NCBI GenBank assembly: GCA_034521575.1
Contig: JAXHMJ010000005.1
Coordinates: 930,001 to 994,000 of the forward strand
DNA: 64,000 nucleotides
Origin: a candidate division KSB1 bacterium
GTDB lineage: Bacteria > Zhuqueibacterota > Zhuqueibacteria > Residuimicrobiales > Krinioviventaceae
Reading direction: 5' to 3'
The position numbers were made by a program, and so were the translations under genes. This document shows positions 45,485 to 63,200 of this stretch, in pieces (position 1 is the stretch's first letter; each line of letters opens with the position of its first letter). The notes beneath the pieces were generated by a model. It ran no database searches. It saw nothing but the letters and a program-made list of their open reading frames with translations, and was not told where the DNA came from.

Positions 45485-46579
45485 TTAAATCCTGAGGAAG
45501 TTTTTTCCCGGCATCTGACGGATCAGGTTTTTCAACTCGAGAGACAACAGGACCGACAGAATTTCGTGCGTGGATATATTACAGTCTCGGGCAATGACAT
45601 CAATATGCCGGGGTTCGTAATTCAATTGTTCATAAATTCTTTTTTCAATTCCGGACAATGGGATATCCTGCTGCTTGTGATGCGCGGACGGACTCAGACC
45701 TTTGAGTTCATCAAAAATATCATCAACGTTACGGACCAGCTTGGCGCCCTCCTGAATCAACAGATTGCAGCCTGCGCATTTTGGATTATTGATATGACCG
45801 GGCACTGCAAAAACTTCACGGTTTTGTTCCAGGGCATATTCAGCTGTAATCAACGCACCGCTTTTTACACCGCCTTCAATGACCAGGGTTCCCAGGGTCA
45901 TACCCGCAATAATCCGGTTTCTTCTGGGAAAATTTGTGGCTTCCGGTTTGGAGCCCAGCGGGAACTCTGACAAGAGCGCTCCCTTTTCAACAATACGTTG
46001 GGCCGTCTTTTGGTTTTCCCGCGGGTATATGACATCGACACCGGAACCGAGCACAGCCACCGTACACCCGCCCTGATTGACTACCGTACGGTGAACAATG
46101 GTATCCACACCACGCGCCAGACCACTGACAATCGTCAAAGGTTCACGGACGATCTCCAATGTCAGATTTTCAGCTATTAATTGTCCATAACTGGTGGGTA
46201 TCCTGGTCCCGACAACCGCGATTCCCTGCTGAATCAGACTTTTCGGTTCTCCCAGCACCCAAAGCAAAACCGGGGGCGACGCAATTCGCTTCAACAACGG
46301 CGGATAATGATCGTCCCATAAACTTTTCAAAAAAGCGCCGGTTTGCCTGAGCCGTTTCATCTGCTCCCGGGCAAACGCCTGATCACCTCCTTTACGGATA
46401 TACCGCGCCAGGGTTGTATCAATGCCGTCAACCTGTGTTAATTGTCGATGAGGAGCGTTGAGCACATTGTCGGGATTACCGAAACGGGCCATTAATGCGC
46501 GTATGCGGGTAGAGCCGATGCGAGGAATGCTGCATAATCTTAATAAAGCCTCTGGATCAAACTTTGAAGGTGACATCAT
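45485..46579 (-). CDS. dprA: DNA-processing protein DprA
   Basis: 364 residues. The Rossmann core has IAVVGTRIPTSYGQLIAENL, TIVSGLARGVDTIVHR, VLGSGVDVIYPREN, NFPRRNRIIAGMTLGTLVIE and GHINNPKCAGCNLLIQEGA, all diagnostic. An N-terminal helix-hairpin-helix (LTQVDGIDTTLARYI) and a C-terminal winged-helix region (YEQLNYEPRHIDVIARDC) flank it. It binds single-stranded DNA and loads RecA in transformation and repair. It starts seven bases after obgE stops, so they are translated from one message. Confidence 0.94.
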   Translation of the reverse strand: MMSPSKFDPEALLRLCSIPRIGSTRIRALMARFGNPDNVLNAPHRQLTQVDGIDTTLARYIRKGGDQAFAREQMKRLRQTGAFLKSLWDDHYPPLLKRIASPPVLLWVLGEPKSLIQQGIAVVGTRIPTSYGQLIAENLTLEIVREPLTIVSGLARGVDTIVHRTVVNQGGCTVAVLGSGVDVIYPRENQKTAQRIVEKGALLSEFPLGSKPEATNFPRRNRIIAGMTLGTLVIEGGVKSGALITAEYALEQNREVFAVPGHINNPKCAGCNLLIQEGAKLVRNVDDIFDELKGLSPSAHHKQQDIPLSGIEKRIYEQLNYEPRHIDVIARDCNISTHEILSVLLSLELKNLIRQMPGKNFLRI

Positions 46580-46585
46580 TCCCCC

Positions 46586-47563
46586 TTAGTGTTCATTAAG
46601 CACATCCCATAATGTATTCAACAATGCCTCCAGCCCGTCCCCGCTGACTGATGATATAGCAAGTGTTTTTTCATGTTTGAACAGGGCAAGATCGGTCTCA
46701 ATTTGACCTGTGTTTTGTAAATCCGTTTTTGTAACAACCACAATTCGGGGCTTGCGGGCCAACTCTTTACTGTAGGACTGCAGTTCTTTCAGCAATGTCA
46801 AATAATCATATTCTATTTCTTTGGAACTGGAATCCAGCAGCAACGCCAGAACACGGGTACGTTCTATATGCCTTAGAAACTGATGTCCCAACCCTTTTCC
46901 TTTGTGTGCATCTTTAATCAATCCGGGTATATCGGTGACCACAAATGTCCGAAAATCATCGATTTTGACAATACCCAGGTTCGGAACCAGGGTGGTAAAC
47001 GGATAATCCGCTATTTTTGGTTTTGCCGCGGAAATCCGGGACAGCAGTGTAGATTTTCCGGCATTGGGGAATCCCACCAGTCCGACATCTGCGATTAATT
47101 TCAGCTCGATGATTATATCTTTTTCTTCACCCGGCATGCCTTCTTCACTATGCCGGGGCGCCTGATTGGTGGAAGTTGCAAAACGGGCATTGCCGCGCCC
47201 GCCTTTACCTCCGCGCACCAGTACCACCTGCTGATCATCGCGAGTCAGGTCCGCCAGAACACGGCCGGACTCATCCCTGGCATAGGTGCCAATCGGAACG
47301 ACGATCACACAAGACTCGCCGTTTTTGCCCGTCATCCTGGCTCCCTTGCCGTGCTCTCCGTTCCGGGCCGTATAGTTCTTTTTGTAACGAAAATCCAACA
47401 ATGTATTCATATGGCGTGTGGCCTTGAGAATGATATCGCCTCCCTTGCCGCCATCTCCTCCTGCAGGCCCGCCTTTGGGTTCGTATTTTTCACGGCGAAA
47501 CGCAACACAACCATGACCGCCGTCACCGGCCTTTACATGTATTTTCGCATAATCTATGAACAT
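46586..47563 (-). CDS. obgE: GTPase Obg
   Basis: 325 residues. The glycine-rich Obg domain (1 to about 157) starts FIDYAKIHVKAGDGGHGCVA. The G domain has GFPNAGKSTLLS (G1), TLVPNLGIV (G2/switch I), DIPGLIKDAHKGKGLGHQFL (G3/switch II) and TKTD (G4). No OCT or TGS tail, as in many short Obg proteins. It is an essential ribosome-assembly and stress GTPase. In Bacillus, Obg is linked to the SigB partner-switching pathway, which makes its position just after a STAS protein notable. Confidence 0.95.
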   Translation of the reverse strand: MFIDYAKIHVKAGDGGHGCVAFRREKYEPKGGPAGGDGGKGGDIILKATRHMNTLLDFRYKKNYTARNGEHGKGARMTGKNGESCVIVVPIGTYARDESGRVLADLTRDDQQVVLVRGGKGGRGNARFATSTNQAPRHSEEGMPGEEKDIIIELKLIADVGLVGFPNAGKSTLLSRISAAKPKIADYPFTTLVPNLGIVKIDDFRTFVVTDIPGLIKDAHKGKGLGHQFLRHIERTRVLALLLDSSSKEIEYDYLTLLKELQSYSKELARKPRIVVVTKTDLQNTGQIETDLALFKHEKTLAISSVSGDGLEALLNTLWDVLNEH

Positions 47564-47604: not shown

Positions 47605-48247
47605 TTATGAATACTGACGAGAATATTTATACCGGTCTGACTTTGAATTCAACCCCAGTTTTTTTAATCGCTTGCGAACCTTCAGCCGCCCCATTTTTAT
47701 ATTGCCGTATTCGACTGAATTCAGCATTCGCGCTATTTGCCCCGTCCCGGCATCCGGATTTTTTGCGACGATCTCTTTGATCTTGTCATCCAAAGAACTG
47801 TCATCCGGCTGAACGGAAGGATGCGGTTCTGCATCTTTAGCTATAGTGACCGTTTCGGACGTCGGGGGGGCCTCCTGCCCGGATGCAACGGCGCCGGCAA
47901 AGTCGGCGGCTGCGTCTTTGATCGAATCAAAAGCGCGAAGGATATTATGAAATTCCAGCAGCTCGAAAACTTCCCATACTTCCGTCGTCATGCCAACAAG
48001 CTTCAAATCACCATTTCTTTCACGGATACCCTTGACTTTCGCTGATAAAAATGCCCCAGCCCGCACTGCTCACATAATCCACATTGCTCAGATCGATAAT
48101 GATCTGATAAGACCCCTCCTTTAGCAGTTTGGTCAAGGCATGTTCGAGCTCCGACGACGTTGTTGTATCAATATATCCGCCGACTTTGATCACTGATATA
48201 TTGTTATTTCTTCCTGCACGTTGTATGGATACTTGGATACCTTCCAT
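47605..48247 (-). CDS. STAS-domain anti-sigma-antagonist-like protein with HTH-like tail, frameshifted
   Basis: The first frame has ISVIKVGGYIDTTTSSELEH and IIIDLSNVDYVSSAGWGIFI, the STAS fold with the phosphorylatable serine region (SSAGW). After a one-base shift at about 48034-48041 it continues as GIRERNGDLKLVGMTTEVWE and FELLEFHNILRAFDSIKDA, the normal end of STAS. After a Pro/acidic linker, the C-terminal 60 residues (IKEIVAKNPDAGTGQIARML then LKVRKRLKKLG) look like a transposase-type helix-turn-helix. About 213 residues when joined. It should be the substrate of the kinase/phosphatase protein upstream. The added HTH is unusual for this family. Confidence 0.82.
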
Positions 48248-48340
48248 TACACACTCTCCGTTGTATAACCCCCAAAACGATTATTTATAATATTAAAGAT
48301 AAGAGTTCAAAGCAAAAATGTCAATACTTTATTGAAACAG

Positions 48341-49003
48341 TCAAACATGGCTGCGCAAATGCCGGGCTTTATCAACACTTTTCTTTATATCGTCCCGATG
48401 CGGGGAAAGGCGCAGCACATTCCGCCATTGTTCTATGGCATTGTCCAGTTTTCCCTGTTTGGCATAGACTATACCCAAATTTTCGTATGCCCGTTCGTCT
48501 TTCGGATCAAGATCAATCACTTTTTTATACGCATCTATTGCTTTTTCATAGTTTTGTTTTCTAAAAAAAGTATTGCCCAGCAGCAAATAAGCATAAGAAT
48601 TGCCCGGTGAGATTTCAATCACTTTTCCGATCAGACTAATGGCATTATCATAATTTTGATTATTATATAATGACTCGGCATCGGCCAAATCATGACGGGT
48701 GGAAGTTGAGTCTTTTTCAAAGGTCCGCACAAACTTAAAGCCGGTAAAATTGCTATTGTGCAATGCATTTTTTAACAGTTTTCTTGAAGCCACATGAGGA
48801 TTTTCCTCAGATTCGGCATCCACCACATCAATTTGAAACTCAGAGTCACCGGCATCCTGAACCGAAACATTCTCCACGGTCTCTTCAGAAGCCTCTAAAT
48901 CGCTACGAATTTCAGAGTCTTTGTCTGACTGTATCAGGTCGTGAATGGTGGCGGATTCCTCCTCACTGAATCCTATAGTCAGTCTTGTGTCTCTCATCAA
49001 CAT
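48341..49003 (-). CDS. TPR protein of the partner-switch cluster
   Basis: 220 residues. The N-terminal 100 are acidic and low in hydrophobics (ATIHDLIQSDKDSEI, VDVVDAESEEN-like). The C-terminal part holds at least three tetratricopeptide repeats (AESLYNNQNYDNAISLIGKV, AYLLLGNTFFRKQNYEKAID, AYENLGIVYAKQGKLDNAIE). It is likely a cytoplasmic scaffold. Its start overlaps the end of the phosphatase gene (stop within ATGTTGATG), implying coupled translation and possibly a shared complex. No catalytic motif. Confidence 0.82.
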   Translation of the reverse strand: MLMRDTRLTIGFSEEESATIHDLIQSDKDSEIRSDLEASEETVENVSVQDAGDSEFQIDVVDAESEENPHVASRKLLKNALHNSNFTGFKFVRTFEKDSTSTRHDLADAESLYNNQNYDNAISLIGKVIEISPGNSYAYLLLGNTFFRKQNYEKAIDAYKKVIDLDPKDERAYENLGIVYAKQGKLDNAIEQWRNVLRLSPHRDDIKKSVDKARHLRSHV

Positions 49004-52000
49004 GAAAAATCATCCGGTTCGTTTTCAGGGTCTTCAAACTCCGATAGTTCAGAACCCTTTTCAGAGGAACGGGGTTCAGTCGATTCGCTTTCTTCCTCCT
49101 CAACAATTCCCTCAAAATCAGTCAATTCCAACACCGCGTCCGCATCGCTGTCCTGGATATCACCGGCTTTAAAGGTCAGATCTATATCTTCAAGATCAGT
49201 CATATTTTCAAAAGAATCAGCCTCGAATGGATTACGGTCTTCTTCCAAAATGGTATCAAATACATTGCCTTCGCCCGTCTCTGCCTCTTCATCCATCGGG
49301 ACAATGTGTTCCTCTTCTCGCGTATCCTCCCCTTCCTGACCTGCAAAATCAAACCCGGCCAATTGTGAAAAATCTGTTCCGCTTCATCAGGGGGTTCATC
49401 AGCGGACTCGGTCTTTTTAGCAAACGTTTCTGTCAAATCCAGTTCGCTAAAAATATCAGGCTCTTTCTCTTCTTGTTCAAGAACAGGCTCTTTCTCATGC
49501 GGCGCCTCTTCTTGTTCTTTGCCAACCGGCTGTTCGGGCTGCACAGACTTGGCGGGCTGTTGTTCCTCGGTTTTTTTCGGCCCCTCCCCTATCAGAGACT
49601 GATCAGCCAGGAGGTCTTCCAGGGGTTGTGTTAAAATATCTTTTTCATCGTACTGAAACACATCAGTCGATTTGACAGGTTCAGCCTTTGGCTTCGCTTC
49701 CGGCTTTTTGGGCTCTTGCTTTTTCGAGGAAAGAATGCGTTCCTGGGTCGGTTTTTTCGCCGGCTGGACATCATCCTTCTGAACAATCACTTTCCCGTTA
49801 ATCGTCATCATCGGGGTGCCCGGCGCTTTCATGCGCTTTTTCCGTTTTCCGCCGCGTGCCACAAAAGCCTCTCGCAGCTCTTTGGTATTGAGACGCATAC
49901 GCACGAGTTCATCATAAATCCGGGATTCTTTGAGTTTTGTGAAATGATAACGCTCGGAATTTAGTTCTTCACTGATGCGCTTGGCGCCGTATTCCGGATG
50001 TCGCTGTATCACATCATAGATCTTGGTCCGTTCTTCAATACTCAGATGTCGTAATTCTATTGATCCGGCATCCGAAGACACTTTAAATGTTTCTACCCCC
50101 TCGGATTCAAACAATTCTTTGTATTTGTTATAATACGCATAAGAGGACAATCCCGCCAATTCGCAGGCTTCTTTGACATTTTTTCCTTCTTCGATATATA
50201 CATATACCTTTTTAGCGCGTTCAAACTCTATTTTTTCGACAGTGGTTTCCTCTTTCAGAGCAACCAGAGTTATATCGTCATTTTGAGGCCAATCCTCGGT
50301 AAAGACTTGAAGCTCCTTTTTGATATTATTGACAAAATCATTCACATTCTGACTGCCATAATTGCGAATGGTTTCGAGAAACCGTTCATCACCAAACAGT
50401 TCCCGTTGCGGATTCATGGCTTCGGTAACCCCGTCTGTATAGACGATGAGAACATCATCTTCCGCCAGTGCAATCGTGTCGGATTCCAGCGACTTGCGGA
50501 ACAATTGCTTATCGGGCAGTGAAATACCGATCGGAAACCCTCGCGGATTCAGATAATAGGTTTTCTGGGTGGTCGGTCGATACAGAATCATAGGATTATG
50601 CCCGGCGCTGGCGTAATTGAGACGACGGCGTCTGGAATCAACAATGACATAAAAAAGCGTAACAAACATACCCTTTTTCATGTCATTGACCACAAAATCA
50701 TTTACACGGGACAGTACTTCGGCCGCGTCTTTGACACCGCGCGCTTCTGTACGCAATGCCGTTCTGATCATGGTCATCACCAGAGAGCCCGGCACACCTT
50801 TTCCGGATACATCGGCGACCACAATTCCAAGGGTATCTTTGTCGACTTCAATAAAATCATAGTAATCGCCGCCCACCTCTTTTGCGGCGCCGTAATAGGA
50901 TGAAATATCATAACCCGTGACCTGTGGAAATTCAGCGGGCAGCAATGTTTGCTGGATTTCCTTGGCCACCTGCATTTCCTGCTGCAGCCGTTCCTGTTCA
51001 GCGAGATTGACCTGAGATTCACGTAATTTGATGGTTATATCACTGAACGCTTTGGCAATGGACCCCACCTCTGTGGTGTCATCGATGTCCATCTCTTCGA
51101 TCACACCCGGCTGTCCCAGACGCTTGACCCATTCCTGCAGTCTTTGAAACGGATTCATAACCAGGTAAATCAGCAGAAATAATCCGGCGGCTCCGATCAG
51201 TGCGACCAGCAAGACGCCCCTCAGATAACGGCTGCGCACTTCATTGATTTCGGTGTACAATGTATCATAATCAATTTGATAATGCGCATGCGCCAGAACA
51301 CCGCTGCCCGCAGGATCGCGGACAGGCATCACAATATCCATGACGCGCTGACCATTTTCCAGTTCGTAGAGATAGGCATGCTCTGTAAACTCGCTTGCAT
51401 CTTCCGGTAATGAAAAGGTTTTGGCAACCTTGTCCTTGTCATAGCTGGCAAGAATCCTCTGACTCTTGTCCACGACCAGGACATCAACCACATTTTCGTG
51501 CTGTTCGGAATTTTTGATGGTATTTACCGGGCGCTGTGCCTGCAGCCAAACCCGGACATCCTCACTCCCGTCATCACGCAAGTCCGGAAGCAAAGAGGGA
51601 TCATCGAGGTTTTCCCAGTTGGTTTGAACTTCACCGCGCAATACGGTACAACTGTTCTTCCCCTGTTCCAGGGCAATGTGCAATATGTTCTGTTTCTGGT
51701 TGAAAAACATGTAAAAATACACTCCCACCAGAATAACACTTAAAATGCCCATCGCATAAAGCCAATACCGCATTTTCAGACTGAGGGGAATGGATGAAAC
51801 GTGCAGTCCTTTATGCTCGGGTTCGACACGTTTTTTGGTGAGCCACAGTTCGTTGCCGGCTTCTGTTTTTCGGTAATCAATATCATCCAGCAGTCGGCGC
51901 ATCATGAAAATACCGAGCCCGCCCTTTTTGCCAATCTGAACATAACGTGACAAATCAGGTTCAGAGACATAGCGCGGATCAAAATATTTACCGCTGATCC

Positions 52001-52248
52001 GACGGAACACCATCACCAAACTGTCGCGTTTGGCTATGGCCCGACTTGGTTATATCCCCTTCCGTATCCCGATAGGCATGCTTTATAATATTGGTGGCAG
52101 CTTCGTCTGCGGAAAGCTTAAAGGCGCTAATCACCTTGTCGGAATACCCCCATCGTTTTCCGATTTTGGTTACAAAATCCCTCAACTGGCCAAGATACTC
52201 ATACTTGGCCGGGATGGTCATTTCGGATTTATCGACCCGCTTAAACAC
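48997..52248 (-). CDS. RsbW-like kinase / membrane sensor / SpoIIE phosphatase / HTH fusion, frameshifted twice
   Basis: Start GTG 52248 after GAGGAA. Order along about 1,080 residues: GHKL kinase of RsbW type (N-box ADEAATNIIKHAY; after a one-base shift near 52020-52045, G-box KKGGLGIFMMRRLLDD); TM1 (WLYAMGILSVILVGVYFYMF); periplasmic sensor of about 165 residues; TM2 (VLLVALIGAAGLFLLIYLVM); HAMP; coiled coil (EMQVAKEIQQTLLPAEFP); SpoIIE/PP2C domain with its acidic metal sites (EVGGDYYDF, VVADVSGKGVPGS, VYTDGVTEAMN, QNDDITLVAL); two HTH-like modules (KNVKEACELAGLSSYAYYNK; EYGAKRISEELNSERYHFTK); Lys/Pro linker; long acidic tail, entered through a shift near 49372-49385. It combines both opposing enzymes of a partner switch in one sensor. 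Confidence 0.85.
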
Positions 52249-52257
52249 TAGATTCCT

Positions 52258-54263
52258 CTACTCGTCACTGGCGGCTCTTTTCTTTCGCAATTCCGACCGG
52301 GCGTAATCGAGAGCTCCCCACAAATTCACATTGTGAGGCTGAATATCAAGCGCCTGCCTAAAGTATCGAATGGCCTCCTCGTAATTCTTGTTGGTCATTT
52401 CAGAATATCCTTTGAGATAAATTTCGCGGACCTCCGGAGTCATATCCATTCGTCGCGCATTGGAACGGGCTTTGGCTTCATTATATTTTTGACGCAACAA
52501 TTTATTGTTGGGCGCGATCTGCATCGCCTCCTGATAAAGTTGCGCAGCTTTGTCCCATTCTCTATCCATCTCATATTCAGCTGCCCGCCGCAATTTGGAA
52601 TCATATGAAAGACGGCCCTCAAGCTGGCGTATTTTTTCTTTGATCAAGCTTTCCCATTTTTTGATTCCACGGGAAAGAGGCAGCGCCTGCCGATACAGGT
52701 CGAGCGCATTGTCGATCCGGTCTTCCTTTTCAATCTTGTGAGCCTGTTCAACCAGATCAACGATCCGGTTTTTCAGATCCTCTTTGGCCTTTTCGCGAAG
52801 GTCTTTGATCAGAGAACTATTGGGGTTATAGGTCAATGCCTCATCGCATTCTTCGATGGCCTCATAGTACTGTCCCTGTTCATAAAACGCGAGTGCCTGC
52901 TCATAATGTTGCTTGACCATACGCTCATTATATTTGCGTTCCTGATCAGCCTGCTTGCGTTCAATTTCATTTTCCAGTTCCTGCTCGCGTTCCTGATCAA
53001 TGGCCTGGGTGATCTTTTTCGCCAGTTCCCGCGCCTCTTCAAATTCGGGCGCATCACCGGTTTCATCATAGGCCAGCACTTTGCTGATGGCGCTGTAGGC
53101 GCGCGGATAATCACCTTCTTCATAATACTGACGGGTGCGCGATACCTGGAGTAAATCGTTTCCCGGCGCTCTTTATTGCGCTGCTGAATGGCTTCTTCCT
53201 GAATTCGCTGCATTTCGCGTTCCTGGATTTCCGCTATCCGTTCGTTGCGGGTTTTTCCAAGAGCCAACGTTGCCGAAATACGGTGGCTGGAATCAAAGGC
53301 ATCCCGGCCGCCCCAGTAGGAATAATCCAGCTGGATTCCAAACTGCCGGATACCGAATCCATACGTGGTACCGTATCCCTCTGTATAGTTGCCACGCCGG
53401 TTCCATCCCAAACGCAGCAGAAACGTCTCGTTAAAGCAGTATTCCAAACCAAAATGCAGGTAATCCGGTACGTGCTGATTTTCGTGTACATCATACTCAA
53501 AGGCTGCGTGCAGATAGTTATTTTCTTCATTCATGAAAAAAGGACGGGACAATCCGAAACGGTACAAACGCGGACTGAATTCGCGTTCTTCGTCGAATTG
53601 CAGAGAGCGCTGAACAATATTATGAGCGTTCACACCGATTCTCCAATTCCTGAAAAATCCGGACTGAGCGCCGGAGACCAGCAGTATACCGACATCACCA
53701 CCGACGGAAGATTCAGAGTACATATTGACTGCGTTGGCTTCATCCTGATAACCGGGAATGCGCATATGTTCAATTTTCAAATTGGCGCCTATGGAAAACC
53801 AGCTGGCCAGTTTTTTCCCATAGCCGAACATATACAAGCTGCGTCCGTAATCTTCGCTGCCCAAATAGGAAGCGTTGGAATCACGCAGCTCCACATCTCC
53901 GGTTGCAAGGCGGAGAACACCAATTGAGAACGTACCGGTACTCAATGTGGGATAGGTAAAAGAAAGATAGCTATATTGGGTACCCATCGGCAGATTGGTA
54001 TGATAAGCGCCCAGTGACATGGCAGGCACCATTTCCAGCGAAGCAGGATTCCAGTAGAGTGAAAAGGCGTCGTCAGCAACGGATACCTGCGCTCCACCCA
54101 TTGCCATGGCTCTTGCACCCACGGGAAAATCAAAAACATCAGTGACTCCGCCCCACTGATCACCGGCTCCGCCTTCCTGAGCGGTGGATGCAACAAACAA
54201 CAGCAACACGATACAGGCTATTGTTTTCAAATATTCAAGTGTATTTATCATCGCATAGATCAT
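52258..54263 (-). CDS. PorV/PorQ-family outer-membrane protein fused to TPR domain, frameshifted
   Basis: The N-terminal part (to about 53160) has a signal peptide (TIACIVLLLFVASTAQ), then DFPVGARAMAMGGAQVSVAD and AFSLYWNPASLE, the hallmark start of PorV/UPF0164 barrels. Alternating strands run on to FGIQLDYSYWGGRDAF with its ISATLALG end. A coiled, charged linker (IQEREMQRIQEEAIQQRNKE) leads through a one-base shift near 53145-53160 into about 300 residues of TPR-like helices (QALAFYEQGQYYEAIEECDE, AIRYFRQALDIQPHNVNLWG). PorV shuttles type IX secretion cargo to the cell surface. Here it follows the giant surface protein by seven bases. Confidence 0.82.
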
Positions 54264-54270
54264 AGTTTGG

Positions 54271-57200
54271 TTATCTCACAACAGCAATTTTAGTCATCGC
54301 TCTTTGACCTGATTCCGTGACAAGCACGGCAAGATAGACACCGTTCAGGACCGGTTCATTCATACCATTGGTTCCATCCCAGCTCCATTCTGCCTGATGC
54401 AATCCAGCCTGGGTCAATTGCGGATGCTCGGATTGAGTAAAGCTCCAGTTCCGAACCCAATCGCCTGTCAACGTATAGATATTAATTTCAAAATTCTCGG
54501 CCTGATTCAAATAGTAGACAAAATGGGTTTCCGTTTTATTAAACCGGCCAAACGGATTCGGATATACAAAAAACGTAGTTTCGGAACTGTTTTCCATCAC
54601 TACCGACAATTCGGATAAAATCCCGAGAAAATCAACTCGTTGACCGCTGGAATCCGCGATCAGCAATTCCTGATTCAGTTCATCCCGGACCCGGATATCC
54701 CGGCTCGAATCCACCGAAACGCGAAATTCCCTGACATTGGTTTCATTCAGGAGATCGGCAACGATATAAACCGTATCTCTTGCGGACCCGGCAATTGTAT
54801 CGGCAAAGAAATCGGTAAAATCCAGATCAATACGGGAAGAATCGGTAAATTCCGTCACTTGACCCAACACAGTAGGTTTTGAGAGTCCTGTTTCACAGCG
54901 GCGATTCGCGAAAAAACAGCGCCCGGTGTCCGGAGTTCAGATCCTTCTTTATTCCGCAGGGTCAGGCTGACACCGTTTAAAATAGAATGAATGCCACTGC
55001 CGCCGTCTTTGTTCCAAAATGCCAATCCCAGCAGTGGAACATCGACAGCTTCTGTCAATACGCCGGATTTTCTCGGTACCGCAACATTGTCAACCTGTAC
55101 CACACCCTTTTCAACCCGGGTTAACACAGTCGCACTCGAGTCTCCCACATAGGCAGCAACTTTTGACAAATCATCCCGGGGCGGTTCGACCAGCACAACC
55201 CGGAGAGTATCAACCGGATTCGTGTACTGTTCAGGGGCCTTGACCTGCCAAATCACTGAATCGCGTTCTCCGGTCTTTATCAATGAATCAGAAAGCAGCT
55301 GATAGGCTTCAGGCAGATCCAGCCGCGCCTTGAAACGACCGTGAAAACCTGCCTCGCCATAGTTTTCAAGCTTGGCGGTAATCCAGAATGAATTACCAAA
55401 GCGAACATTGGCAGTATCCAGACCGGGCCGCTGATGCAGATAAGCCTGCACTCTTATGTCCGCCCTGGAAACCGCTTGAATGGTAAATTCAACGTCTTTA
55501 TCTTCCACAATTGCCTGTTCTCCGGTATTCAAATCTTTGGGAACGGTCTCTACAATAAATACAAACTTTGACAGATTGATGGGTTTCTCGGGCGGAGCTT
55601 TTATTTGCCATTCAGGATAGATTTCATTGTTGATCTCCTGTCCGGTCACCTGCTGCCTGAAATCACTCAAAAGTTCATAGTCTCCATCCTGAGGCAGGAT
55701 CAGCTGTATCTTGAAAACATCTGATCTGAGATAGGAAGCTCCGTCATGAGTGATTTTCGCACTCAGTGTAAATTCCTGTTCGGTTGAGACCAGTGAAGTC
55801 AAACCTTCCGGTTTTGAAATAAACGGTTCAATCATGAACGAAGCGGCCTGATGGGTCATAATTTTTAAATGGGTTGAAGTGGCCGTAATTTCCTGTCCGG
55901 AATTTTTATCCCAAGCTGTAATTTCAACCCACATACTGTCCCATTCAGTGGTGGCATAATCCGGCGCCTGTAAGTTCCATTGAAGCGATGCGGTTTCATT
56001 AACCAGCGTCACCACTTGACTGCGGCCTGACAGAGAATACGCGGAATTTGACACATGAAACTCGGCTGTAATCTCGTTGTTTTCTACATTCTGACCCCAC
56101 AGTTCAGCGCTTACCGTAAATTCCTGCTGCGTGGAAACTGTGTTATGCCCGGTATTGATTAGAAAATTTCTAACCTGCAATTGCGCCGCCCGTTCCGTAT
56201 GCACGGTTAATTCGCGCTTGCGGACAGCCACATTCACAGCTTTTCCGGAATTTTCATCATTCGGCAGTCGGGTCATTTCAACACGAATCAATTCTCCGAT
56301 AGGTTTTTGAATGGTGGGCGCTCTGACTTCCCATTCCACATAACCGTCATCACTGAATTGCACGGAATCCGATGTCAGAATGGTCAAACCGCTCTTTAGC
56401 ACATTCAGTTTAAGAGTACCCGTACCGGTAATGCCGGCTTCGCCCGAATTGTTAACCCGGGTTCGGATTACGGCGCGTTGATCCGTAGCAAAATACGCCT
56501 CACCCTCGCGCATAGAAATCGGCGGCCACGAGACCTCAAGAGGTTCAACAGTCAGTGTGCTTCTGGAGACGACACGGTTGATGGATACGGTATTGGTTTG
56601 TTTGATCGTCCTTCCGTCCGCTGAACGTCCCTCCACCTGAACAATAATTTCATGAAACTGGCTGATCGGCACATCAGGCGCCAAAAGAGTCCATTCGACC
56701 ACTTGTTCGGAAGAATGAACATTAAGCGTATCCTTGGTGCGCAATTCGTAATGGGCATCGCCGTCCAGAGACGGCAGCAGGAGAACCGCGCGACGGTCCA
56801 GAATATTATCTGTCGAATTCACCCGGACACGAACGCGGAACAACTGTTCGGTAGAAACAATGCCGTCCGTGGCGCCGTCCGGTGCGGAAATCAACAAATT
56901 ATCGAGGGACAGCGCTGCGCCTTCGGTTGATAATGCCAGTGTATCTGTGATATTGACAACACGAGATGTATCCAGCGTATTCAGATCCACAGGTATTTGA
57001 GTCATTGTGGTGGTAATATAATCAGGACCTGAGGCCACTTCCGGCGCTCTAAAGGTGAATCGCACATCCGTTGAATCATGGCTATCGGCGAAAGAAAACA
57101 ATTGACTGACCGGCGTGGTGACATATTCCGTGGTATCATTGGGATTCTTGACAAGATAGTCTTCCGGCGGTGATATACGGATTCGCCCTTCGCCGGCTTT

Positions 57201-60200
57201 GGATTTACCCTGGTTATAAATCCTTGTAATCACATCAAAATCCTGACCGATCACCACAGATTCCCATTCTCCGAGTCCGAGAAAAACATTCTGTCGGATG
57301 CCAGCCGGTGTTTGTATGAGACATTGGGTCATCCGATCCGACGGTGTATTTGAAGAACGGATTTGCGCAGGAATAGTGCTGTTTGCGGTCATTGCTGAAA
57401 TAATGGATGCTTCAAATTGTTCCGTAATTTCTCCCTGTTGAACATCCCATGAGCTGTCTGCAACCATTGTAAATTCAGCCGTGGCTCTGCTGTCACGCTG
57501 AATAGAATCAATCACGACCGTGTCGGGATTGGTCAGAGACAAACCGTCGGATTCGAGTCGGACCGCCACACTGTCCACGCCCAGGAGTTGACCGGTTCTC
57601 AGGTCGATTTCCACTTTAAATTCCTGTCCCCGATTGACCAAGCCAATCCCGGAGTTGTTATGCCGATTGGCGACAACCCTCGCTTCAATGATTTGCACAA
57701 GCGCTTCACTGTTCACAAACACTGAATCGGAAGCGCTTACAGGAGGCAGCACATGTTCCGGACCGGCCTGACGATCAAACGCCGAGAGAACAACCTGATA
57801 AACAGCTTGTCCGGCAACATCACCGTTTCGGGTCACCCGATACACCAGCGTATCAGATTCACCAGCGTCCAACGTAAAATCGGGATGCACTTGCAGACTT
57901 TCAGGCGGGGTTACCCGATATTCCGGGTCCGGCTGTTCTTCGACCGTAAAAGTGATATTGTCAGATGTGATGTTGACAAATTCAAGAGGCGCCGTACCCG
58001 TATTGGATACAACCGCATAAATATTCCATGGGCTCCACTTGTCTCCCGCATTGATACTTTCCACCTGGTGAAACACATCTACAATAGCAAGCATGGCGCC
58101 GCGCTCCACAATCGCATAGGCGGAATTGGCATCGCCGGGATTCACGATATTCGGATCACCGCTTTTGTTCAAACCGGTGGCGGACAAAATGCTGGAGGTA
58201 AAATTCACCGTACCGGTCATTTCTCCGGCGGACGCGGAAAAAAGAACCCGTCCGGTATCTCCGGCTGCAATCTCGCTTTCGATCAACTGCGGGGAATTAT
58301 TGACTGTCGCCAGTTCCTGGACATTGCTATTCAGTCTGACAGTCACATCACGCACTGTTTCAGTGCCTTGATTGATAACAGAAACCTGTATCGGAAATTC
58401 CTGATTATAGCTGACACGCCGTTCTTCATTCGGCGCCAGATTGAGGGTTTCCACAATTCTCAATTGTGCGGGTTCATCGACCACCGTTAGCAGCGTAGAA
58501 TCCAGCGCTGTCAGCCTTCGCGGGCCTGGTATGAATCAATCCCGCGCGCAGATAATATGCGTGCGACAGCGTATTCGCCATCCGGGCTGGGGGTTTGCGG
58601 AGCCTGCACTGTAAACTCGACATCTTTTTGCGAACCGAATGAAAGGTTTGTCAAAGTTCTTTCCGCATCACCAATAATCTGCAGGTTTTGTGTACTCAAA
58701 CCGACGGTTACATCTGACAAATCCTGTCCGCCTGCATTGTTGACAGTCACTTTGACATTAAAGGTCTGGCCGGTATTCACATGCACTGTATCCCCATGCA
58801 CATTTAATGCTGTATCCACATAGGTTCGGGTTATTTGAACGGCGGAATTTGAATACACGACAAAAGGAACGTCGGTTGTGCTGACAAAGCTATTGCCGGG
58901 CCGGGCATTCATATCATGCCCCAAAATACTGATGCGTGCAGTTTTTTCGCCGTTGGCAAACCCGGTGCGTTTGATGGAATAGACCAGGGTGTCGGTCTCG
59001 CCAGCCATCAGATATCTGACATCCTCATTCAGTTCTTGCTGCTCGATTAAACAACCATCTTCACCCACAATATCCAGTCCCATGGAATCTGCAGGACCGA
59101 TTTCAATGGTACCCTGCCCTGAGTTTAAAAGCGCCACATGGACATTCCAGGCAATCCATGAACCAGCGCCTACGCTGTCCTTGTCGGCGTAAGCATCCAC
59201 AATTTGCAAATTCCCGGCTGCTTGCGAATGAATCCGAACCGTGGTATCAGAACGGGAGAACGAGGTCTGAATGTCAGCAGCTTCGCCACCGCTTTTGCCG
59301 ATGACCTCCTGAATTTTGGCATGAATAACCTCATTGCTTCCGGGGAACTCGGGCGCCTGCACGAGCAGTCCGGGTTCTGTCCATTTGGATTCACCCGGCG
59401 CAATATCATAGACACTCAGCGTATCTCCCTGTATAAACCGGATGGAATTGAAAAACGAATCAAACTCCAAGGTGGCTTTTTCGATCGTATCGCCGTCAGC
59501 GCCCGTGAGATTGGAAACCAGGGCGCGCACATGGAACGTGGAATCGGCATTCACGAGTGTATCTGATTTTACATAGGCGATCAATCCATCCATACGGGCC
59601 GTTGAAGGATTCAGTACGTTGACTGTCGGCAGCGTTTCAAGACTGTCGCTGGTAGCGACAAGCTCCCGGCCAGTATTCAATTCCAGAACCATCACCTGGG
59701 CGCTGATTTGCACATCCCCGATCAAAGCAGGGTCCTGACTCACCGAATTGATTCGGAAAAAAAGGCTGTCCACGGCATTTCCGCCGAGCTGCATACTTTC
59801 GGAACCGGCAAACCCTGTTGGCTGTTCGATATCAAAAAAGGCATTGCCGCTGCTGAAATTGACAAACGTCTCGTCGACAGCATTCTGCAGGGGCCTGCAT
59901 CATGCCGCCGCCGGTGTTGCGGACATATGCAATAATATACCAGTCGGATTGCTGACCGCGAATCACAGAGGGCTGGCTGACCGCCAAATCCTCCAAAACA
60001 ATATTGGCAGGTTCTTCAACCGTCAATACGCCGGCATTGTTGATTTGAGTTTGATATTTATTTCCACTATCAATCGAGTCGGCCATCCAGACCTGGGCGC
60101 TTAGCAACACGTCGCCAATCGGCGCCGACGAAGAAACCTCGGTGACCTGAGCTGTCAGTGTTCCGGACTCTTGAGGCTGGAGATACGGAGTGCCGTTCTG

Positions 60201-63200
60201 AAACGTGCCGGGGACATTCAAGGTAAATTGGTCACTCACATCCTGAGTATTATAATTAAAAATAAGGTTCAAATCATCAAACTGCAAGGTACGAATACTA
60301 TTATTCTGAATTTGCAGCTGAATATTGAACGGATTCGTCTGTCCGCGAATCACCGTTTCCAGGCTTGAACTCAAATCCAGAATCGCAAATTCACCGCTCA
60401 CACCGACGTTGACCTGATCCCCCTGAAGAGATACTTGCTCATTGACGGTCTGCCCGTTCTCAGTACCTCGAATAGTGAGCACCGGCTCAAAAGAACCGAC
60501 GTCTAATGCGCCGGAGACATATTCTCTCTTGAAACGCAGGGTTGAGGTCGCGCCTCCTTCCAGGACAGTGTCAAACGAGCCATCCACTGAGGCGGTAAAC
60601 TGATCCGCGCCATCACTGATCCGCAGAACGGTTTGATTCTCCGACAAGAGGACATCCGCCTCACCGGAGTTGGCAATGTTGAGACGAAATTCTACAAAGT
60701 TCCCGGGCACGATATTCGCAGGTGATAATGATCCCTGCTGATAGGAAAGGACGGAAGGCGCCTCGATCTTAAACAGAAAGGCTTCCGGATCAGGGGTTTC
60801 AAAAGTCATGGGCAAATCACGATTCAACTCGACAGCGCGCATACGGGCTTTGATTGAAAACTCACCGGTCACGGATGGCATGTCAGTTATGGGAACAATC
60901 ACACTGTCAACCTCACCCCCGTCAAGACGCGTTCCGCCGCCCGCAAGACTTGACGGCATATCCGTCTGAAATCCTGACGTTTGGGAACCGTTTTGATAAA
61001 ACCGGACCCAGGTTTCAGCGGCTGAATTCAAATCAACGTCCACGGCAGCCTGGCCGGTGTTTTCAACCACGACGGTCACCCACCAATTCACCGTACTATT
61101 CCGGGTCACGGTTTGCTGAGAAGCATACAACTCACGAATACTGAACTCGGCCGGGGTTTCTAATACAGCCTGACTGGTTTTTCCAACAGATTCCGAGTCG
61201 ATTGCTTTGTTCTGTCCGGTGTTATTGACAGAATAATCCAGATTCACATCGATCATAGCAATGCCGGGATCCGCATTGTTAAACCCAATTGGAAACACAA
61301 GGGTATCGGTTTCCAAGGCGCTGAGGGTAGAATCACCATTGGTCAAATAGCCTGAACCAATAGTCAACCCGGGATATAATCCGCCGCCCTGGGTTGTGAG
61401 CAGGCACTCGGTTTGACTAAAATCAATATCCACAGAACTGCCGCCATAATTGGCGAGTACGGCATATACATTCCAATTCTGCACCGAACCGGTAACCGTC
61501 ATCGGTGACCGCGAGGGCTGCAGAGAAACCAGTCGCAGATCGTCGGATTTTTGCACGAGAATTTCACCAAACACATCCGACAGATTTGACGTTGTATAAT
61601 ACCCTTGTCCTGTGGTCAGTCTGGCTGTGATGCTATAGTGCCCGTCCGGGACCCCCGCATCCACTTGATCAACTACAAAATCGACATAACGTGTTGTCTG
61701 AGGAGGCAGATTGGTGCCGCCTCCGACAAATGCACTGGGGAAAATAATATCATTGGGAGAAATATATTCCATACCGCGATGTTTCAGGGTGACATAGGTT
61801 TCAGCAGGATCAAACGAAAGTGAAAGCGGAGCATTACCCTGATTGCGGATCCCCACCCGGATTGTAAAATCCTGGGTTTGACCAATGGTCACAGCCGGCT
61901 GATTGACCGGCGTAACCTCGGTCAGGATAAGCGAAGTGGATTCCACGCACTGAAATGATTCCAGCACACCTGATGTGAATGACGTGTTCTCTAGGGAATT
62001 TCTGTCATCGTAATCCAGAGACACGCGCACTGAAATATGGGCCAGAGGAGCATCGTCCCGGGCAGCGATATAATAATTAAAAATCCGGCTGCTATTGCCG
62101 GCAAGTGTATCCGGATTGCCGGGTTCGGGTGTGACATCAAAAAACTGACTGACATCGGCAGGCGCATCGCTGTAAAAGGAAAAATTTATAGCATTAAATA
62201 CCGCAGCGGCTGAAAACGGCTGACCGTTGTTATTTTCTAATGTCAGACGCATCGGTACGCCGGAAGACTCTCGGGCAATGGTATCAGCTTCTATAACCAG
62301 ATTTGATATCTGCACATCCGCCGGTTCCTGGACAATCCAGGAGTCTATGATTTCTGATCCCACTTTATCCAGCGGCGCCCCGTCAAACGTTCCGCTTACA
62401 GCGCCATCAATCGTAATTTCACCCAAAGTGGCGCCGGCGCCCACATTCACCGTAAACGGAATAGAGGTGGTTTGTCCGGCAGCCAGAGAGGTCCGGGATA
62501 CAGACGGCGCCACATAATCGCCGTCCACGTTCATTTGATCCGTGCGGAAACGTAAATTACTTTGATAGTTCAACAAAGATTCAGTTCCGGTATTCTGGAT
62601 TTCCATTACCACGGTAATATTATCCTGGCCGCGGGTTACAAACTGCTTGTCTGCGGTCACACGCGTAATACGAATAGGATTGGAAAGCTCCACCCGAATG
62701 GGATCGGTGGTATGCTGAACCGCTCCGCTGGCCACCGTAATGGTCTGTTCACCGGCAGTGTTCAGATTAAACTGAACACCGGCAAAGTCATGGGATGCCT
62801 GATTGTTATACGAATAATCGCCGGGCAAGGATGTCGCCGGTTCTGTATCTGTACTGGTGAAAGATACGGTACCGTTAAAGTCAATTTTTTCATTATCATA
62901 AATATCGTATGCAGTCACCGTTACCGGGTCGGGGAACGGATTGCCGGCCTGAGTTATCTGCGCAGAACCGGAGACCTCGGAAAGCTGGTGCAGATCTGCA
63001 GGAAAGACATTAAAACTGTTTGTATTCACCGTCGTATTGGTCTGCACAGACGTGCCGGTGAGTCGCACACTCTCTGTTTTGAACAGAATCTGCTGAGCGA
63101 CGCCGCTTCCGTTTATGACCACGATATTATTCAGCGCAGGTGTCTGACCACTGGGCGAGGCATGATTACTTCCCTCGACGCCAATATTGATTTGTCCGGA

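Follow-up and report, generated by a model that had tools for sequence, protein, structure and literature searches.

A transposase-type helix-turn-helix module common to a predicted membrane kinase-phosphatase and its candidate STAS substrates in the candidate division KSB1 phylum

What does a partner switch act on when no sigma factor gene lies beside it and its STAS protein ends in a helix-turn-helix (HTH) module? The question is raised by a gene cluster on the minus strand of a 64,000-nt stretch of contig JAXHMJ010000005.1 from a candidate division KSB1 bacterium (phylum Zhuqueibacterota); this whole stretch is called the window below, and positions are counted from its first letter. The cluster encodes a predicted switch enzyme and an adjacent STAS protein, STAS1, for which the first-pass annotation had proposed a new, non-sigma output. 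The signalling module is real, extends over the phylum and is undescribed in the sources searched; in particular, the literature search found no papers tying KSB1 or Zhuqueibacterota to partner switching. None of the catalytic parts is of a new kind, but the overall architecture, and the transposase-type HTH that enzyme and substrate have in common, appear to be new. The parts of the two genes are as follows.

48341..52248, minus strand: switch enzyme gene, a single open reading frame (ORF) of 1,200-1,480 aa in relatives, frame-broken in the window
51834..52248, minus strand: RsbW-type GHKL serine-kinase domain (HATPase_c_2), over two frames
51705-51761, minus strand: first transmembrane segment, from hydropathy
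51237-51485, minus strand: periplasmic Cache-like sensor (sCache_3_2), E 9.4e-4 with the window protein, under the Pfam cut-off
51159-51215, minus strand: second transmembrane segment, from hydropathy
51024..51173, minus strand: HAMP linker, window position from alignment
50253..50840, minus strand: SpoIIE/PP2C phosphatase domain (PF07228, E 1.5e-51)
50100..50240, minus strand: HTH1, three helices, resembling the first HTH of IS481/IS3 transposases (AlphaFold2 and NCBIfam)
49845..50060, minus strand: HTH2, the module common to the enzyme and the STAS proteins (AlphaFold2, hhalign and module search)
49770..49840, minus strand: basic patch with PGTP motif (RKKR.KxPGTP), net charge +4 to +7 over 14 residues
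48720..49769, minus strand: long acidic disordered tail, net charge -38 to -120 in relatives, in three frames in the window
48341..48720, minus strand: C-terminal TPR repeats of the enzyme (TPR_1, E 7e-22)
47605..48247, minus strand: STAS1 gene (STAS domain, variable linker, HTH tail), with a frame break at 48029-48057; mostly 214-244 aa and intact in relatives
48065..48067, minus strand: predicted phospho-serine codon, the second Ser of VSSAGW, aligned with SpoIIAA Ser58 (1th8)
47614..47799, minus strand: HTH tail module of STAS1 (own-genome module search, E 5.6e-26; net charge +6 to +10)

In about 30 relatives the enzyme is comprised of the GHKL kinase, membrane sensor, HAMP, SpoIIE/PP2C, two HTHs, basic PGTP patch, acidic tail and TPR. 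The kinase and the phosphatase thus lie on one membrane protein, with the GHKL domain, two transmembrane segments, HAMP, SpoIIE/PP2C and the two HTHs in the order initially proposed; the accompanying description as one polypeptide holds for relatives, which have one ORF, but not for the window copy, which is broken over three frames. In at least one intact relative HATPase_c_2, SpoIIE, HAMP and TPR pass the Pfam cut-off. PF13581 matches the GHKL domain of an intact relative with E 9.3e-24 and is found in the window in two pieces (52048-52215 and 51834-51992). The intact domain matches B. subtilis RsbW (6m36, E 2e-14), keeping the N-box (SEACTN/DEAATN) and the G2 region (GGLG), so that the ATP-binding motifs expected of a partner-switching serine kinase are intact in relatives, while the domain itself is frame-broken in the window. 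The HAMP match varies between loci (Pfam E 7.4e-7 in L035, 0.0089 in L009).

The metal-site motifs of the phosphatase (GGDYYD, ADVSGKG, YTDG, DDIT) show little or no variation among 31 homologues. Foldseek places the PP2C region closest to the RsbU domain of Rv1364c (3ke6) and also returns the SiaA PP2C domain (6k4e), RssB and SpoIIE, and the HAMP-PP2C region matches the SiaA model NF038263 (E 7.9e-19). Residues P384, G385, T386 and P387 of the PGTP motif are invariant in the homologue alignment; the basic patch and the long acidic tail could modulate either DNA binding or docking.

The STAS1 model matches SpoIIAA and RsbV in Foldseek, and the predicted phospho-serine (S65 in the alignment) is invariant in 30/30 sequences. 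Since the kinase motifs, the PP2C motifs and the phospho-acceptor serine are all conserved, every part of a kinase-phosphatase-substrate cycle is present, and such a cycle is predicted from them.

Both HTH segments of the enzyme, initially described as transposase-like, are indeed modelled as HTHs by AlphaFold2. HTH1 consists of helices 245-261, 266-273 and 278-291, with a block predicted local distance difference test (pLDDT) score of 72-86, and HTH2 of four main helices in residues 305-376 (block pLDDT 83-94 over the core). The NCBIfam IS481 transposase model matches the enzyme HTH region in 31/31 cases (best E 3.7e-11) and the IS3 model in 27/31; in the window protein, HTH1 and HTH2 together cover positions 3-115 of the 284 positions of the IS481 profile (E 9.7e-10). 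Single Pfam matches to the modules are weak, HTH_21 being found in 16/32 modules with a best E of 6.9e-6. As in IS481/IS3 transposases, the HTH is bipartite, but in those it is N-terminal and accompanied by a catalytic domain. In the enzyme the DDE catalytic domain is absent: the match stops at 115/284 and is followed by the acidic tail and TPR. The enzyme is therefore not filed as a transposase; unlike a mobile element, it is fixed at one genomic position across the phylum.

The STAS1 tail forms four confident helices after a disordered linker (pLDDT 90-95, AlphaFold2 on L045) and is HTH_21-like (PF13276, E 2.9e-4). Its similarity to the enzyme HTH, asserted at first reading, is borne out for HTH2: the modules alone align in hhalign with a probability of 96.7% and E 3.7e-10 (60 column shuffles reached 0.003 at best), and the full enzyme and STAS alignments with a probability of 94.7 and E 5.9e-8. 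The own-genome module search likewise recovers HTH2 (E 2.4e-28). Judging from these alignments, HTH2 and the STAS tail are homologous. HTH1 shows no similarity to either of them at the sensitivity of hhalign, and hence HTH2 is the sole HTH common with the STAS proteins. A sequence search of the PDB with the module alone gave no significant match, and Foldseek results with the enzyme and STAS models were dominated by STAS and PP2C, giving nothing informative on the HTH.

How widely these features are kept was assessed by a scan of 84,980 species genomes for close relatives. It yielded 38 loci, and the restriction to the phylum rests on that scan. Most loci are labelled candidate division KSB1 or Calditrichaeota/Caldithrix, some just "bacterium", and a few carry other phylum names, possibly being misassigned metagenome-assembled genomes. 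The HTH region is present in 77/82 genomes of the phylum of the window, and in all 49 of the 49 with at least 90% completeness and at most 5% contamination. The gene order is also kept: large secreted protein, PorV with TPR (640-700 aa), enzyme, STAS1, obg, dprA, gltX, with an isocitrate-dehydrogenase-type gene sometimes standing before obg. PorV is found ahead of the enzyme in 31 loci, wherever the contig reaches far enough (one locus with ~350 bases upstream is undecided), and STAS1 follows the enzyme in 34. As expected from the window, where obg is next after STAS1, it follows STAS1 in 25 loci, being missing in about four that have several kilobases of downstream sequence. Both the domain order and the linkage with PorV and obg, proposed for checking in relatives, are thus kept across the phylum, and the genes are neither randomly placed nor accompanied by a sigma gene among their conserved neighbours.

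The first-pass annotation missed a second, unlinked STAS-HTH protein, STAS2, which lies in a gene cluster for cell-wall and exopolysaccharide functions:

L078:6322-7068 (own genome, C5), minus strand: STAS2, with the phospho-serine of SSAGW kept

The three usual carriers of the module are the enzyme, the linked STAS1 and the unlinked STAS2. The window genome has three module matches, which is also the typical number per genome of the phylum, and at least one match is found in 81/82 of these genomes. STAS1 modules are basic (net +6 to +10, isoelectric point about 10), as are the last 62 residues of STAS2 (net +7 to +14), whose C-terminus, similar to RYRFYRSR, is conserved in nearly all of 22 aligned relatives. 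The neighbourhood of STAS2 is kept in about 20 genomes. The gene stands between glycogen synthase and Wza/Wzc-like exopolysaccharide genes, with mreCD-mrdA-rodA-like genes upstream in many relatives. The upstream order is mreC, mreD, a penicillin-binding protein 2-like gene, rodA, a lipoprotein-like gene, galT and glycogen synthase, and the downstream order Wza-like export, Wzc-like, sugar epimerase, sugar transferase, glycosyltransferase and often an asnB-like gene; these names were read from N-terminal sequences of clusters, not by profile. A 762 aa STAS-acidic-module variant (G081) also adjoins Wza/Wzc-like genes.

Other carriers of the module were observed as well. Some genomes contain paralogous enzymes, two of which adjoin a second PorV-like gene and a large protein. 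The module-bearing ORFs of 1,600-2,000 aa at L079, L080, L081 and L082 proved to be paralogues that have diverged from the enzyme and grown longer: their acidic tails are very long, they have extra TPR blocks, and no HTH1 can be recognised in them. They occupy a different conserved locus, adjoining dehydrogenase-type genes. The own genome further contains a separate cluster (L089, C5:384000-395000) of a free SpoIIE, a bare STAS (130 aa) and an RsbW-like protein (158 aa), a partner-switching set of more conventional make-up that lacks the HTH module; one SpoIIE gene there is frame-broken.

As in Rv1364c, the RsbU-RsbW-RsbV fusion of Mycobacterium tuberculosis, phosphatase and kinase share one polypeptide. 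In Rv1364c, however, the order is reversed (RsbU, then RsbW) and the STAS part is fused, unlike the separate STAS proteins of the phylum; Rv1364c is not known to have a membrane or HAMP part or an HTH. In the SiaABCD system of Pseudomonas aeruginosa the kinase SiaB is a separate protein and there is no HTH; the similarities are the match of the HAMP-PP2C region to SiaA and a non-sigma output, which there controls biofilm. The SiaABCD target, SiaC, activates the diguanylate cyclase SiaD (PMC8457831). In the RsbU-RsbW-RsbV and SpoIIE-SpoIIAB-SpoIIAA switches of Bacillus each catalytic and substrate domain has a clear relative here, but these are separate proteins with a bare STAS, a sigma output with a linked sigma gene and no HTH. 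The cognate sigma gene of a canonical SigB/SigF switch is not encoded with the module of the phylum.

The closest resemblance is to SypE-SypA, the biofilm/polysaccharide switch of Vibrio fischeri. SypE has the order kinase-input-phosphatase and controls SypA, which acts downstream at the syp polysaccharide locus (PMC10120452; PMC8256260). Similarly, the enzyme has an N-terminal serine kinase, central input and C-terminal PP2C in one protein; STAS is the downstream output in SypE-SypA, and a polysaccharide locus holds a STAS partner (here STAS2, not STAS1). The input of SypE is a receiver (REC) domain, while here no REC match is found and its place is taken by the two transmembrane segments enclosing the Cache-like sensor, with HAMP. 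The HTH pair, acidic tail and TPR, the same HTH on STAS, the two STAS partners and the other phylum are further differences. Of the initial idea of a new non-sigma output, the HTH-bearing STAS proteins stand, but its novelty was overstated: fusions of kinase and phosphatase had been described before (Rv1364c, SypE), as had outputs other than sigma factors (SypA, HmpV, SiaC).

The reading that we favour, with about an even chance of being right, is a membrane-anchored SypE-SypA-like partner switch with two STAS-HTH outputs that would act on DNA, or on a different polyanion, at genes for the envelope, polysaccharides and surface proteins. The direction of signalling would be as follows. The periplasmic Cache-like domain would sense a signal and relay it via HAMP, setting the balance between the N-terminal RsbW-type serine kinase and the C-terminal PP2C phosphatase of the same polypeptide. 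Both would act on the conserved serine of STAS1, encoded by the adjoining gene, and of STAS2, whose gene lies in the cell-wall/exopolysaccharide cluster. Both STAS proteins, which end in a basic HTH module with homology to the N-terminal DNA-binding region of IS3/IS481 transposases, would then be outputs, not upstream regulators of a sigma factor, the most likely output being their phosphorylation-dependent association with DNA or another polyanion at the genes named above. The near-neutral module of the enzyme, together with the basic and acidic extensions, is likely to hold the STAS proteins or to compete for them. A more specific version, in which these proteins form a family of STAS transcription factors whose DNA binding is set directly by the membrane kinase/phosphatase, the module being derived from an IS3/IS481-type transposase, is tentative and clearly less probable.

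Several observations weigh against this proposal. Phosphorylation and DNA binding are predictions from sequence. The transposase and HTH family matches fall well under the curated (full-length) family cut-offs. The third (recognition) helix of the enzyme HTH is near neutral (net 0) and contains Asp/Glu, unlike a DNA-binding helix. The search for operators upstream of STAS2 by 8-mer enrichment gave AT-rich words only, little over shuffles, and no conserved motif resembling an operator. What ties STAS2 to this enzyme is the common module and near-universal co-presence. Finally, the 18 sigma-70-type genes of the genome leave room for an unlinked sigma partner. Since the STAS modules are basic and the third helix of the enzyme has net charge 0, the STAS proteins may plausibly bind DNA, the enzyme less plausibly.

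The same charges suit the main rival to a DNA output, a heterotypic dock between the enzyme and STAS modules: the neutral, Asp/Glu-containing third helix of the enzyme could contact the basic third helix of the STAS modules (median net +3), which carries conserved aromatic residues. The HTH module would no longer bind DNA and would serve as a docking or dimerisation domain, joining the enzyme with its two STAS substrates and insulating them from other kinases, phosphatases and STAS proteins, and STAS would act on a protein target, as SypA and SiaC do. Such insulation would be needed because the genome has several other STAS, HATPase_c_2 and SpoIIE genes; moreover, in the examined loci the module is confined to the enzyme, its paralogues and the STAS proteins, none being found in other regulators. 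On the other hand, the specificity of SpoIIE/RsbU phosphatases for STAS is set by loops of the phosphatase domain (PMC11418112), so that an extra dock is not required, and the basicity of the STAS tails equals that of nucleic-acid binders, STAS2 ending in the conserved RYRFYRSR. We regard docking as a serious but less probable explanation than the polyanion-binding switch.

Considerably less probable is a classical switch, in which the GHKL domain would in addition hold an unlinked sigma factor captive until dephosphorylated STAS released it, the HTHs being accessory. GHKL, PP2C and STAS are all recognisable relatives of RsbW, RsbU and RsbV, and the 18 sigma-70 region-2 genes offer candidates, but the nearest of them is about 86 kb from the cluster. 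In agreement with the first reading of this DNA, no such gene was found in the 64-kb window, nor among the conserved neighbours of the 38 loci, which are PorV, the secreted protein, obg, dprA and gltX. The order of the kinase-phosphatase fusion resembles that of SypE, where STAS is the output, and STAS1 itself stands behind a housekeeping-type promoter. This promoter and the linked genes are located as follows.

48285..48324, minus strand: sigma-70-type promoter of STAS1, TTGACA-17-TATCTT in the window (conserved motif)
52258..54263, minus strand: PorV/PorQ-family outer-membrane protein with TPR, linked; one ORF in relatives, with a break near 53145-53154 in the window
46586-47563, minus strand: obg, linked, conserved neighbour
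45485-46579, minus strand: dprA, linked, conserved neighbour

The promoter surfaced from an 8-mer enrichment search aimed at operators. TTGAC(A/T)TT with 0-1 mismatch is found upstream of STAS1 in 31/34 relatives and in the window, 61-141 bp before the start, and most relatives have a TATATT-like -10 element. As this conserved promoter lies between the enzyme and STAS1, the housekeeping polymerase can, on this prediction, read STAS1 apart from the PorV-enzyme operon, and with it possibly obg and dprA. Obg, whose linkage is conserved and not universal, could merely share the STAS1 promoter. An isocitrate/isopropylmalate-dehydrogenase-type gene stands between STAS1 and obg in many relatives (L025, L026, L029, L034, L035 and L042).

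The ORFs of the window run on the minus strand from 54263 to 43645, beginning with the PorV-family gene with TPR (NF033709 PorV_fam, E 4.6e-41 on the L009 protein, NCBIfam) and ending with obg, dprA and gltX. Between PorV and obg there are the GHKL fragment (51988-52248), the main ORF (49200-52019), an acidic ORF (48997-49362), the TPR ORF (48341-49003) and the STAS tail ORF (47605-48066). In the enzyme, the GHKL domain changes frame at about 52044-52050, and the acidic tail crosses three frames, with breaks at about 49350-49420 and 48960-49010. In three-frame translation, GHKL domain, acidic tail and STAS domain are all seen to carry on in an adjacent frame. With the intact L009 proteins, tblastn finds the enzyme as three pieces in three frames, STAS and PorV as two pieces each, and obg, dprA and gltX as one unbroken piece each. 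The TPR ORF matches residues 1256-1431 of the L009 switch enzyme and is, by this alignment, the C-terminus of the enzyme. The separate acidic TPR protein with overlapping starts, assumed in the first-pass annotation, is ruled out by its fusion with the enzyme in relatives.

Several frame breaks also interrupt the genes upstream, that of the PorV-family protein and that of the very large secreted repeat protein with about 2,550 aa or more in relatives (52833-62700, minus strand), so that this part of the assembly is rich in indels. Since each broken gene is one ORF in relatives, the breaks are likely assembly indels; homopolymers of four or five lie near four of the five breaks inspected, although the sequence has many runs of this kind. 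That the genes are truly split, into a kinase-less enzyme, TPR and STAS fragments, or are pseudogenes, is very hard to credit despite the number of frame breaks (three or more in the enzyme, one each in STAS and PorV, further ones in the secreted protein), as the protein is conserved on both sides of every break, the main frame has no stop over ~870 codons, the adjoining obg, dprA and gltX are intact, same-family relatives have one ORF, and mid-domain breaks in several unrelated adjacent genes fit long-read indels.

The targets of STAS proteins in non-sigma switches (SypA, HmpV, RbaV) have been described as unknown (PMC10120452; PMC8256260). Here the STAS proteins carry a visible output or docking module common to the enzyme, and one of them lies in an exopolysaccharide/cell-wall cluster, which makes the question of the STAS target directly testable. 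A transposase-type DNA-binding region has been fixed into core signalling over a whole phylum. If true, the transcription-factor version would represent a counterpart of two-component systems that is based on Ser, consists of two proteins and does without sigma factors. The presence of a common module in the switch suggests a new way to control genes or the cell surface.

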